From Acidobacteriota bacterium (GTDB taxonomy: Bacteria; Acidobacteriota; Terriglobia; Bryobacterales; Bryobacteraceae): a stretch of 51,084 nt of DNA. The first letter of the stretch is position 1, and the number at the start of each line of letters is the position of its first letter. Below, one piece after another: positions 6,882 through 10,161 of the stretch. The notes under the pieces are model-generated. The model was not told the origin of the DNA. It did not search any database and was given only the letters and a program-made list of their open reading frames with translations. The stretch is from the NCBI GenBank assembly GCA_003223115.1, contig QHXW01000202.1, forward strand, positions 1 to 51,084, read 5' to 3'. The position numbers and the translations under genes were made by a program.

Positions 6882-7994
6882 ATGCTGACACGACGTGGGT
6901 TTGGCGGTATAGGATTGGCGACGCTCGCGGGGCGCATGTTGCCCGAGGTGGCGTATGCCCAGCGAGCCGCGGTGCACGGCACGTTGCCAAACGATATGGT
7001 TTGGCTCAACGCAAATGAGAACCCGGACGGGCCTCCAGCGTCTTCAATCGCAGCGATGACGAACGTGCTGCCGGAGAGTTGGCGTTACCATTACCAGGAA
7101 TTCGGCGCGTTCTACGCGGCACTGGCGCACGGTGAGGACCTGGCGCCCGAACAGATCCTGGTGGGCTCGGGTTCGAGCGAGATTCTGCACGCCGCCGTGG
7201 AAGCTTTCTCTTCTGCCACGCGGCCATTGATCACGGTTGCTCCAACCTACGAAGGTCCCGTCGATGTCGCAGCCGCTTCCGGCCACACGGTGGTGCGCAT
7301 TCCGCTCGAGCCTCCGTACGTACCCGATCTGCGAAAGCTTGTAGCGGAAGCTGAGAAGGCAGGCGGCGGACTCATCTATCTCTGCAATCCGAACAATCCC
7401 ACGTCCACCGTGGTTCCGAAAAAAGACCTCGCCTGGATGATCTCGAACCTGCCGCCCAACACGGTAGTTCTCATCGACGAGGCTTACATACATTTCGGCG
7501 ATACGCCCGAACTCGCGAGCGCGCTGGGCTACGTGCGTCAGGGAAAGAATGTTGTCGTGACGCGGACGTTCTCCAAAATTTATGGGATGGCGGGTTTGCG
7601 GGCCGGATTTGGATGCGCTCCGCCCCAGCTCATCGCCAAGATGGCCCCGTTTCGGAATAACGTCATCTCCATCGTGACGGTACGGGCCGTTCTGGCCGCG
7701 ATCGCCGAAGGTAACCCACTGGTTCAGCAACGGCGCACACGCCTCATTCGTACCCGCCGGGAGCTGTTGAACTGGCTGCGCGAACGCGAAATTACGTTCA
7801 TCGAGCCACAGGCCAATTTCCTGATGATCGATGTGCGGCGCGATGCACGGGAGTTTATTTTCAACATGCCTCCCAAAGGTGTAGCCGTGGGGCGGCCGTT
7901 CCCGCCCATGGACAACTTCCTGCGCGTCACAATCGGAACTGATCGCGATATGGCCAGATTCCGCGAAGTATTCTGGAGCCTCTACAGAGCATGA
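6882..7994 (+). CDS. Tat-exported fold-type I aminotransferase (histidinol-phosphate aminotransferase-like)
   Basis: A 370-residue PLP enzyme. The start ATG 6882 follows GGAGGTGAGC. The N-terminus MLTRRGFGGIGLATLAG, followed by AYA, looks like a twin-arginine signal (TRRGF), so export with bound PLP is inferred. Family motifs are the early NENPDGPP, IYLCNPNNPTSTVV, the PLP-contacting aspartate in LIDEAYIHFG, and the PLP lysine in TFSKIYGMAGLRAGFG. These place it with HisC-like class I/II aminotransferases, but a biosynthetic HisC would be cytosolic, so a periplasmic amino acid or amine substrate is more likely. The stop overlaps the start of the RidA gene (ATGA, 7991-7994). This coupling fits removal of reactive imine or enamine products of PLP chemistry. 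Confidence 0.85.
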   Translation: MLTRRGFGGIGLATLAGRMLPEVAYAQRAAVHGTLPNDMVWLNANENPDGPPASSIAAMTNVLPESWRYHYQEFGAFYAALAHGEDLAPEQILVGSGSSEILHAAVEAFSSATRPLITVAPTYEGPVDVAAASGHTVVRIPLEPPYVPDLRKLVAEAEKAGGGLIYLCNPNNPTSTVVPKKDLAWMISNLPPNTVVLIDEAYIHFGDTPELASALGYVRQGKNVVVTRTFSKIYGMAGLRAGFGCAPPQLIAKMAPFRNNVISIVTVRAVLAAIAEGNPLVQQRRTRLIRTRRELLNWLREREITFIEPQANFLMIDVRRDAREFIFNMPPKGVAVGRPFPPMDNFLRVTIGTDRDMARFREVFWSLYRA

Positions 7995-9205
7995 GACCGA
8001 GTTGGGTGTTGCTTCTCTTGCTGGCTGCCAATCTTATCGCCGAGCGTCGCGTGATTTTCCCGCCCGGCGTAAAACCCGTCGGTCCATACAGTCCCGGTAT
8101 TCTGGCCGGGGATTTTCTATACGTGTCCGGCCAGGGCGCTCGAACTCCGGATGGCCGCATGCCAGCCACCTTTGAAGACCAGGCGCGCCAATGCCTGGAA
8201 AACATCAAGAGCATCGTGGAATTGGCGGGCCTGACCATGGACCATGTGGTGTACACGCAGGTATACCTGGACAATGGTTCGAGCTTCGACGAGATGAACC
8301 GGATCTTTGCCGGCTACTTTCCAGCGCATCCGCCTGCGCGTTCGACGGTTGGCGTCCATCATCTGCCTACCGACACTCCCATCGAGATCAACGCCGTGGC
8401 CGTGCGCGACTTGGCGCAAAAGAAGATTATCGTGCCGGCGGGCGAAGACCAGCCCCAATTCCTCAGCCCGGGTGTGCTGGCAGGCGATCGACTGTACATC
8501 TCCGGTTCGACGCGAGTAGGTCGCTCAGCAGCGCTCCCGGAAGACCCCGCTGAGCAGGTTGAAGCCGCGCTCAAACGTTTTCACCAGATCCTTCAAGCTG
8601 CCGGCATGGATTTCGCCAATGTGGTTTTTGTGAATCCATACCTTACTCACGCGATGCCCACGGAAGTGATGAATCGCGTTTACGCGAAGCATTTTGAATT
8701 CGGCAACACACCCGCGCGGGCCACCATCGAAATGTCATGGCTGCCGTACGGCGCCAATGTTTCCTTTACCGGAGTAGCGATCCGGGACCTTCCCAAACGC
8801 CGCGCCGTGCGCCCCAAGAACATGCCGCCCAGCCCTACCGCCAGTCCTTGCGTTTTCGCGGGCGATACTTTCTATTGCTCGGCGAAATCTGGGTTCATCC
8901 CCGGGGCGAATGGTGGAATTTGGGCGGAGAGTGTGGAGAACCAGGTGCGCCAGACCATGCGCAATCTCCTCGACGGTCTGGAAGAAGCCGGCCTGGATTT
9001 CTCCCACGTGGTAGCCAGCAATGTCTACCTCGTTAACCTCGGGGAATTCGGAAACATGAACGGGGTGTACGCCAAGTATTTTGGTCCTGCTCCGCCCGCG
9101 CGAACTACGATTTCCCCGCTCGCGCCAATCGAGAGAAAGCCGGATGCCTTAGGTCACTCACCCATGCTCGAGCAGATTTCGATTATCGCTGTAACAGAGA
9201 AATAG
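7991..9205 (+). CDS. Secreted protein with three tandem RidA (YjgF) domains
   Basis: A 404-residue protein: signal peptide (residues 1 to about 18, MRPSWVLLLLLAANLIA), then three RidA-like units at roughly 20-140, 140-270 and 275-404. RidA proteins hydrolyse reactive enamines and imines such as 2-aminoacrylate and are normally single-domain cytosolic trimers of about 130 residues. Unit 1 keeps the substrate arginine (PARSTVGV) and the glutamate of the usual active site (IEINAVAV). Units 2 and 3 keep the arginine (PARATIEM, PARTTISP), but the glutamate position reads VSFTGVAI and LEQISIIAV. Only unit 1 therefore looks fully catalytic. The three units could fold as a pseudo-trimer in one chain. 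It is translationally coupled to the upstream exported aminotransferase. Confidence 0.85.
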   Translation: MRPSWVLLLLLAANLIAERRVIFPPGVKPVGPYSPGILAGDFLYVSGQGARTPDGRMPATFEDQARQCLENIKSIVELAGLTMDHVVYTQVYLDNGSSFDEMNRIFAGYFPAHPPARSTVGVHHLPTDTPIEINAVAVRDLAQKKIIVPAGEDQPQFLSPGVLAGDRLYISGSTRVGRSAALPEDPAEQVEAALKRFHQILQAAGMDFANVVFVNPYLTHAMPTEVMNRVYAKHFEFGNTPARATIEMSWLPYGANVSFTGVAIRDLPKRRAVRPKNMPPSPTASPCVFAGDTFYCSAKSGFIPGANGGIWAESVENQVRQTMRNLLDGLEEAGLDFSHVVASNVYLVNLGEFGNMNGVYAKYFGPAPPARTTISPLAPIERKPDALGHSPMLEQISIIAVTEK

Positions 9206-9214
9206 ACCGGCGTC

Positions 9215-9814
9215 TCAGGATTTAGAAACCTTTGCGAGGGCGGCGCGGATGTCATCAATCCCTTGAACCACGGGCGCAGCCGTTATCGAAGGACGGTCCG
9301 ATCCCGGCGGAAAGAGCGCGATAAAATCCCAGATCACCTTCCCCATTTCAAACTCGATCTTGTTCATGCTGTCGGCGGGCGCAAAGTGTTCCGGTCCGCC
9401 GAGAGCTCGAAACCTGTTCGAGAGAGACTCCGAGAGCAAATGCCGCCGGTCCCAGAACTGCGCAGCTCGCAGATCATGCACGCGCGCCAGGGTCGAGGTA
9501 GATGGCGGACCCCAGTCCGTGGGAAGCACCGGTTCCCAAACCACGAACACCCGGACCGGCGCGTCGCGCATTCCGTCGAGAACATTTTGAGTTGCGGAGG
9601 CCCCCCGCAAGCAGACCGATCAAGTGGGCGACAACATCACCAGAACGCGCGTGCTGGCGGAGGCAGCTTTGAATTGTTGATCGAAGCTCTGGGTATCGAG
9701 TGCAGCCAGGGGCGGCTGGCCGGCCGGAGCGCGCCCGGGGACCAATGCATAATATGCGGCGGCGCCCGCCAGGATCAGGACCGCAACCACGATGGTAACG
9801 AGCTTCCTTCTCAT
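9215..9814 (-). CDS. Thioredoxin-like selenoprotein candidate (UGA at codon 65, motif U-S-V-C)
   Basis: Two open stretches on the minus strand lie in the same frame and are separated by a single TGA at 9620-9622. Read through, they give 199 residues: a signal anchor (MRRKLVTIVVAVLILAGAAA), strand RVLVMLSPT, then U65-S-V-C68, followed by LRGASATQNVLDGM and VRVFVVWEPVLPTDWGPPS. The UGA replaces the first cysteine of a CxxC redox motif, the usual place for selenocysteine in thioredoxin-fold proteins. Nine bases after the UGA a hairpin forms (9592-9610). The start overlaps the stop of the upstream MerT-like gene (ATGA, 9811-9814). An extracytoplasmic thiol or metal-linked redox role is inferred. 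The alternative is a pseudogene with one nonsense mutation, but the exact position and the hairpin argue against that. Confidence 0.8.
9592..9610 (-). promoter_or_regulatory. Candidate bacterial SECIS hairpin (thioredoxin-like gene)
   Basis: On the minus strand TTGCGG pairs with CCGCAA around the loop GGGGCCT; a G-U and a G-C pair can extend the stem to eight. The spacer from the UGA is 9 nt, so the loop starts 16 nt downstream and opens with G. This meets the published bacterial SECIS pattern of a short stem, a small loop 16-37 nt after UGA and a G in its first two positions. Confidence 0.7.
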
Positions 9815-10161
9815 CTGACAAAGCCTTTCGGCAGTTTATCAGCAATCAATCCGGCAATGATCTGCGGAAATAACAGCGTCGCTGCAACCACCGCTGCGAC
9901 CGCCCAAAGCAGAATCCGGCTGAAGCGGTCACGCCTCAACGAACAATCCTTGTGCTGGTTGGCCCGGACGAAACCAACCGCCAGAAACAGCACGGACAAG
10001 ACCAAAAGCCAGGGCCGCAACGGAGCCAGGATGCGCGCCGCTCCCGCAGTGCCCGCAGCCGCTAAGAAAGCTCCCAACGGCAGGCAGCAACTCAATGCGG
10101 CTACCAGGCTGCCGAGCGCGGCTATGGCCGAAAACGCCAGCCAACGCTCACGTGTGACCAT
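9811..10161 (-). CDS. MerT-like small membrane protein
   Basis: A 116-residue protein with three predicted membrane segments: about residues 8-35 (including ALGSLVAALSCCLPLGAFL), 45-63 (PWLLVLSVLFLAVGFV) and 82-105 (ILLWAVAAVVAATLLFPQII). The vicinal Cys-Cys in the first helix and a further cysteine after helix 2 (NQHKDCSLRR) match the plan of MerT-type mercuric or soft-metal transporters. Metal specificity is not certain. Its stop overlaps the start of the thioredoxin-like selenoprotein gene, so the pair is co-translated, which suggests a shared thiol- or selenol-based metal-handling task. The start ATG at 10159-10161 lies 63 bases from the divergent MoxR gene. Confidence 0.65.
   Translation of the reverse strand: MVTRERWLAFSAIAALGSLVAALSCCLPLGAFLAAAGTAGAARILAPLRPWLLVLSVLFLAVGFVRANQHKDCSLRRDRFSRILLWAVAAVVAATLLFPQIIAGLIADKLPKGFVR

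Follow-up and report, generated by a model that had tools for sequence, protein, structure and literature searches.

We analysed a stretch of 51,084 nt of an Acidobacteriota genome (contig QHXW01000202.1 of assembly GCA_003223115.1), which is referred to here as the window. Its minus strand carries, at positions 9215–9814, a putative selenoprotein gene of 199 residues plus stop, in whose product a membrane anchor at the N-terminus is followed by a thioredoxin-fold domain carrying the motif LSPT-U-SV-C. The start codon ATG (9814–9812), an in-frame TGA (9622–9620) and the stop codon TGA (9217–9215) lie in one shared frame, and the frame is open from 9814 to 9218 apart from that single TGA. The first-pass annotation of this DNA had described just such an interruption, with both parts in the same frame and the TGA at the first position of a CxxC-type motif (U-S-V-C), and the coordinates and the motif bear this out. 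In the read-through product the motif spans residues 61–68, with the predicted selenocysteine at residue 65 (9620–9622, minus strand) and the second position of the UxxC site at Cys68 (9611–9613, minus strand). As had also been anticipated, ordinary gene calling splits the gene into two pieces. Two features were absent from that annotation. One is a hydrophobic stretch at residues 5–23, found by hydropathy and likely a membrane anchor; with the helix at residues 2–24 of the AlphaFold2 model, the predicted transmembrane anchor is placed at residues 2–24, after the basic start MRRK (9743–9811, minus strand). The other is a gene directly upstream (9811–10161, minus strand) for a MerT-like membrane protein of 116 aa, whose stop codon overlaps the start of the selenoprotein gene (ATGA).

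Homologues of the selenoprotein were collected by a protein search of 101 related genomes (20 matches in 19 genomes) and by running a profile against 396 genomes from the phylum, 47 of which gave matches. A single-protein scan of the genome_contigs collection confirmed no relative, tblastn of plasmids gave no match, and a profile search of PDB sequences reached a best E of 0.29. After two duplicates were dropped (L032 and L033, which repeat L009 and L025), 70 proteins were aligned, and the residues of the motif were counted by alignment column. The UGA column holds TGA in 57 of them, in searches that started from Sec forms, Cys in 11, Arg in one (L023) and Asp in one (L026), and Trp in none. 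Thus the alignment of homologues that had been suggested as a check gives TGA or Cys in 68 of 70 at this column, which is the Sec/Cys exchange expected of a selenoprotein, and a different residue in two. The second position of the motif is Cys in 66, TGA in two (L075 and L081), Ser in one and Ala in one. The Arg and Asp proteins are the same ones that carry Ser and Ala (R..S and D..A), with the remaining domain kept; since they also lack the second Cys they look like inactive paralogues, and probably are inactive forms with another role. The two proteins with TGA at both motif positions, from genomes G347 and G211, make up a UxxU double-Sec branch. In genome searches that read through stops, TGA was the only stop codon inside the matches save for one TAA in G054, which is the gene end; the reading frames of 50 members from the profile search had been cut at TAA or TAG on extraction, which is why the read-through searches, and not the alignment, are our source for the lack of these codons. 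When the two motif columns were left out of tree building, the resulting tree, in which 30 of 67 inner branches are weakly supported, required at least 8 changes between U and C. With U counted as C, the invariant or near-invariant positions are F48, R56, S62, P63, T64, U65, C68, L79, W93, D100, R116, W121, W162, D163 and W174.

Directly downstream of the TGA lies a SECIS-like hairpin, TTGCGGGG-GGC-CTCCGCAA (9592–9610, minus strand). Its stem TTGCGG/CCGCAA starts 9 nt past the UGA and its loop begins with G, both as first reported; G-U and G-C pairs extend the stem to 8 pairs around the 3-nt loop GGC, so that the small, G-containing loop and the position just behind the UGA match what is expected of a bacterial SECIS element. 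The proposal to fold the sequence after the UGA had a mixed outcome: the hairpin is present, but the energy of the 53-nt fold is no better than that of dinucleotide shuffles (z 0.33; 126 of 200 shuffles equally good). An Rfam scan of the selenoprotein locus returned no SECIS match and one chance match. Searching the genome with RF00031 yielded little or nothing, and because this model is that of the eukaryotic SECIS, the search is uninformative here. With an ordinary fold energy and a negative Rfam scan the hairpin alone is insufficient proof, and the case is carried by comparative evidence.

The first search had yielded 18 TGA genes. Across these, standard pairs fill 97.2% of the 144 cells that the 8-pair stem provides, and three stem pairs vary on both sides (10 cells), which indicates covariation; when one side of the stem was slid by 1–3 columns as a control, only 38–62% of cells were paired and no two-sided change was left. 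Extended to the whole alignment, the comparison at fixed stem columns gives 88% pairing for the 57 TGA genes (400 of 456 cells), whereas the 11 Cys genes reach only 41% (36 of 88). Exchanges among the 57 TGA genes include U-A, G-C and C-G at pair 15–29 and G-C, A-U and C-G at pair 17–27. Moreover, the hairpin beats synonymous-codon resampling (p ≤ 0.05) in 34 of the 57 TGA genes, the gene of the window among them (p 0.016), as against none of the 11 Cys genes and neither of the two others. The p-value lies above 0.05 in 23 of the 57 TGA genes, where some hairpins are weak or stand in another register. Judged by these comparisons, the hairpin is under selection in the TGA genes and not visibly so in the Cys genes. 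In L025 it is shifted about 3 nt downstream. A branch with the motif GAR[RW] (L039, L047, L048, L050 and L059) has its best hairpin 5–7 nt further downstream with resampling p of 0.12–0.19, and although this is not significant alone, different branches of the family may place the SECIS in different registers.

The hairpin is constant enough for a plain DNA pattern to retrieve the family. The pattern TGANNNNNNTGYNTKCRRGGGGCCYYYGMA, which combines the TGA with the hairpin and was built from family genes, was run over genome_contigs, by description a collection that represents each of 84,980 species by one genome. It retrieved 83 stretches, of which 80 were taken as loci, and all 80 encode a member of the family by profile (E 2e-10 to 3e-73). 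Because the pattern spans ten codons of the motif, the weight of this confirmation lies on the rest of the domain. The gene is identical to one of the 70 homologues in 22 loci and to none of them in the other 58. Sorted by us according to record titles, 69 loci belong to Acidobacteriota, five to Gemmatimonadota (including Kutchimonas), four to Myxococcota, one to Eisenbacteria and one to a record titled Acidimicrobiia bacterium (L126), so the family looks centred on Acidobacteriota. The L126 gene is the same as L021 of genome G033, which belongs to the window's own family, and the name of that record is probably wrong. Another locus, L114, is identical to L011 and lies in a 6.69-Mb scaffold titled Acidobacteriaceae bacterium KBS 96.

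The genome from which the window comes is a 9.14-Mb draft in 594 contigs, 97.5% complete. A search for selA, selB, selC and selD had been proposed as a check on the selenocysteine reading, and a lack of selB and tRNA-Sec as one of two findings that would refute it, the other being homologues with neither Cys nor Sec at the UGA column. All four genes were found: a tRNA-Sec with anticodon UCA (69.9 bits; the other match over the cut-off is a tRNA-Ser), SelB (370.9 bits), SelA (496.8 bits) and SelD (356.8 bits), all over their cut-offs. The SelD gene itself (L087, 1501–2424) has one in-frame TGA, at GUASK. This fits the motif UxxK listed for Sec-containing SelD in the review PMC13188914, so UGA is also used here by a selenoprotein family that is already known. 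In the draw of genomes from the phylum, where SelB was called at E ≤ 1e-75, SelB is found in 35 of the 37 genomes that carry a TGA form and in 219 of 359 others (Fisher p 1.6e-5, with relatedness ignored). The 101 relatives are uninformative on this association, since SelB is over the cut-off in 86 of the 101 overall, and in 15 of the 17 TGA genomes. The four TGA-form genomes without SelB over threshold are all drafts of 510–950 contigs: G005 (SelA present) and G041 (no SelA found) among the relatives, G339 (950 contigs, SelA present) and G363 (510 contigs) in the phylum draw. SelB is retained in nine of ten Cys-only genomes; the Cys-only genome G426, in two contigs, gave neither SelB nor SelA. 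The Asp-form genome G014 has SelA, and its only SelB match covers 105 positions at a contig end.

Two other readings of the TGA have to be weighed against decoding as selenocysteine. It could be a true stop, in a pseudogene, through a sequencing error, or between two separate short proteins, and the two pieces given by gene calling agree with this, as does the TTG at 9610, where a downstream ORF could begin. However, 57 of the 70 homologues have TGA in this very column, with the frame continuous on both sides and TGA the only stop codon inside the read-through matches (the terminal TAA aside), and the hairpin is under selection. Moreover, the KBS 96 scaffold is not a metagenome-assembled genome, which rules out metagenome assembly error as the cause, and we consider a true stop very improbable. 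Equally hard to credit is that the TGA is read through as Trp or as a near-cognate amino acid. Readthrough alone could preserve the frame, and we found nothing that supports it specifically, but 11 homologues have Cys in the column and none has Trp, the machinery for selenocysteine is complete, and a conserved hairpin stands downstream. In addition, the selenoprotein gene itself terminates with TGA, so TGA also works as a stop here. On the evidence of the column, the hairpin and the machinery, we therefore rejected a pseudogene, an error of sequencing, and readthrough with insertion of a different amino acid. The Sec/Cys exchange, the covarying hairpin, the machinery and the pairing with the upstream gene are established by sequence comparison, and on these grounds the earlier proposal of a UGA read as selenocysteine is well supported; that TGA 9620–9622 is decoded as selenocysteine and that the gene belongs to the family described here are, taken jointly, highly probable.

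The thioredoxin fold, which had been guessed from the sequence, is supported by a confident AlphaFold2 model (pLDDT 91.1, pTM 0.86), in which a strand (55–61) leads to the UxxC site (65–68) at the start of a helix (66–80), as in thioredoxin-like proteins. The structure matches listed by VIA (Z 10.4–12.0, alignments covering 121–150 residues) include DsbF, DsbE, ResA, CcmG and glutathione peroxidases, these at Z 10.4–11.3; Foldseek gave only three matches at E ≤ 0.001, with TM 0.39–0.56. At the level of sequence models the domain is hardly recognised. Pfam Thioredoxin (PF00085) does not match the window protein and matches four of the 70 relatives weakly (best E 5e-4). In an NCBIfam scan of the 70 members at E ≤ 0.01 the sole thioredoxin-type model was pdi_dom (three members, best E 0.0061), which is not a selenoprotein family and whose matches lie far below its 107-bit cut-off in the members examined. 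Weak matches of PF01620 (residues 6–54) and PRK12659 (residues 1–50) to the window protein lie mainly over the anchor and the linker, and we regard them as chance hits. From the anchor, the basic start and the positive-inside rule we infer that the thioredoxin-like domain lies on the outer face, and the UxxC site probably faces the periplasm.

The upstream protein shows three hydrophobic peaks, predicted to be membrane helices, with the CC pair of SCCLP in the first and one Cys in a loop. Its assignment as MerT-like rests on this hydropathy, on relatives that are adjacent or fused in other loci, and on a match to the NCBIfam model MerTP_fusion (E 1.2e-7, 31.6 bits) that is far below the cut-off of 180; a Pfam scan of the protein gave no match. 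A profile grown from this gene, the training loci of which partly overlap the 80 pattern loci (22 shared genes), finds a MerT-like gene in 57 of the 80, adjacent upstream in 47, fused in nine and elsewhere in one. None was found in 18 loci despite sequence at hand, and five are too near a contig end. The partner keeps SCCLP and usually one more Cys before helix 3. In the fusions the thioredoxin-like domain comes after the third MerT helix, which is the place occupied by MerP in MerTP fusions. A MerP/CopZ-type HMA domain is fused in three of the 70 members, before the thioredoxin-like domain in L049 and L054 and after it in L039. Neighbouring genes were scanned with up to two proteins per locus (135 of 136 proteins, one longer than 900 aa being omitted), and among the best 25 of 108 families MerR regulators are the top Pfam family, with nine proteins, and HMA occurs in four, counts that stand without a background rate. 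DUF2703 occurs in three and zf_CopZ in two of the 135 proteins, and these neighbours could be metal- or redox-linked. Four loci (L103, L123, L151 and L168) form a branch without a MerT-like gene, where the nearest called upstream neighbour is the type IV pilus protein PilM; PilM, SDR and similar neighbours were not accepted as functional links. As for MerA, the best match in the window's genome, the 97.5% complete draft, has 345 bits against a cut-off of 454, and among the 101 relatives only G005, G049 and G083 have a match over the cut-off, G005 alone being one of the 19 family genomes. Matches outside these three are probably other flavin disulfide reductases.

We propose the following course of events. 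SelB and tRNA-Sec would decode the TGA as selenocysteine at the hairpin directly downstream. The product would be a thioredoxin-fold protein anchored in the membrane, its UxxC active site probably facing the periplasm, and it is encoded in one operon with the three-helix MerT-like membrane protein, the two genes overlapping. The selenol–thiol pair may then capture a soft metal such as Hg(II), or reduce its thiolate, and the metal would be passed on to the CC pair of the MerT-like partner, with the thioredoxin-like domain in the place that MerP has in MerTP fusions. This capture (or thiolate reduction) and handover is our leading mechanism, held tentatively and with a chance somewhat short of even. 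Classical Hg(II) reduction as the role of the system is weakened by the lack of MerA over the cut-off in the window's genome. A broader claim, for which we see a fair way less than an even chance, is that throughout a whole unlisted family, mainly of Acidobacteriota and reaching Gemmatimonadota and Myxococcota, a Sec-thioredoxin domain replaces MerP beside or fused to a MerT-like transporter, as a selenium-based handling of soft metals without MerA and with a UxxU branch.

The same selenoprotein could instead be a periplasmic thiol-disulfide or peroxide reductase, which the MerT-like protein would serve in the membrane as an electron partner and not in metal transport; CcdA with ResA or TlpA is the comparison for such a partner. 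The structure matches are to redox proteins, MerA is scarce in the family genomes, the partner retains its SCCLP and usually the further Cys before helix 3, and 18 of 80 loci do without a MerT-like gene. The conserved W93, D100, R116, W121, W162 and D163 suggest chemistry beyond metal binding, and such Trp, Asp and Arg residues, together with the lack of MerA, keep this reading alive. The fusions to MerT-like proteins, the HMA domains in three of 70 members and the MerR neighbours, however, indicate soft metals, and we give the reductive role a chance a fair way below even, not far behind the leading mechanism.

Selenocysteine in MerT- and MerP-type proteins is already known (PMC2398784), and a 2026 review (PMC13188914) catalogues 119 selenoprotein families of prokaryotes in its Table 1. 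In that table we recognised no row with the motif or partner of the present family, though a row whose definition is just a Pfam or cd domain may still include it. The catalogued selenoprotein models of NCBIfam, each listed model being assumed present in the copy used, gave no match at E ≤ 0.01 to the thioredoxin-like domain of the 70 members; the selenoprotein models NF041115 and NF045683 match L039, L049 and L054 in their HMA domains. A search of the main texts of openly accessible journal papers found no description of the family in print. Because selenocysteine is known in MerT/MerP-type and in thioredoxin-like proteins and no listed family recognisably matches, this is apparently an unlisted family of thioredoxin-like selenoproteins, large, membrane-anchored and usually beside or fused to a MerT-like protein.

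The closest known systems each share part of this arrangement. With the thioredoxin-like UxxC selenoproteins in Table 1 of PMC13188914 (PF00085, PF13098, the HUIPC-motif family NF047660, SaoT NF040730 and GOS_C NF045500) it has in common the thioredoxin fold, selenocysteine at the first position of a CxxC-type motif and a SECIS-like hairpin right after the UGA. Its own features are LSPT-U-xx-C-[LV]-[RQ]-G-[AS]-S in close relatives, the conserved W and D positions and the MerT-like partner. Moreover, NF047660, NF040730 and NF045500, again assumed present in the copy, are not among the 19 NCBIfam families that match any of the 70 members at E ≤ 0.01, and PF13098 matches no member. The MerTP fusion and the MerT and MerP of mercury operons (NF033556) share the MerT-like part, the CC pair in helix 1 and a second domain that is C-terminal or in the next gene. 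Here, in contrast, the second domain is thioredoxin-like with selenocysteine and not of the HMA fold, HMA being an addition in only three of 70; the match to the MerT model is far below its cut-off, and MerA is mostly absent from the family genomes. A link between selenocysteine and MerT-type proteins is shared with the MerT/CopZ fusion-like heavy metal transport selenoprotein NF045683, which matches the MerT-like upstream gene weakly (E 7e-4), and with the 'putative mercuric transport protein' selenoprotein (PF02411, C/SxxU), but the selenocysteine of the present family lies in the thioredoxin-like domain and not in the MerT or CopZ part. The periplasmic reductases ResA, CcmG and DsbE share the fold and a CxxC-type site; identity to them is 6–14% in the VIA alignments, and the family differs in having Sec for Cys and a different partner gene.

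Public annotation probably lacks the family or shows its genes truncated, since ordinary gene calling ends them at the UGA. Because most of the set found carries selenocysteine (57 of 70), it is a candidate marker of selenium use in Acidobacteriota. If the link to the MerT-like protein is functional, the family would offer a testable case of selenocysteine in soft-metal handling. On the other side of the selenoprotein gene, a convergent neighbour (window 7991–9205, 404 aa) ends 9 nt away from the selenoprotein stop and, judged by eye, seems to combine three RidA/YjgF-type repeats in one protein.
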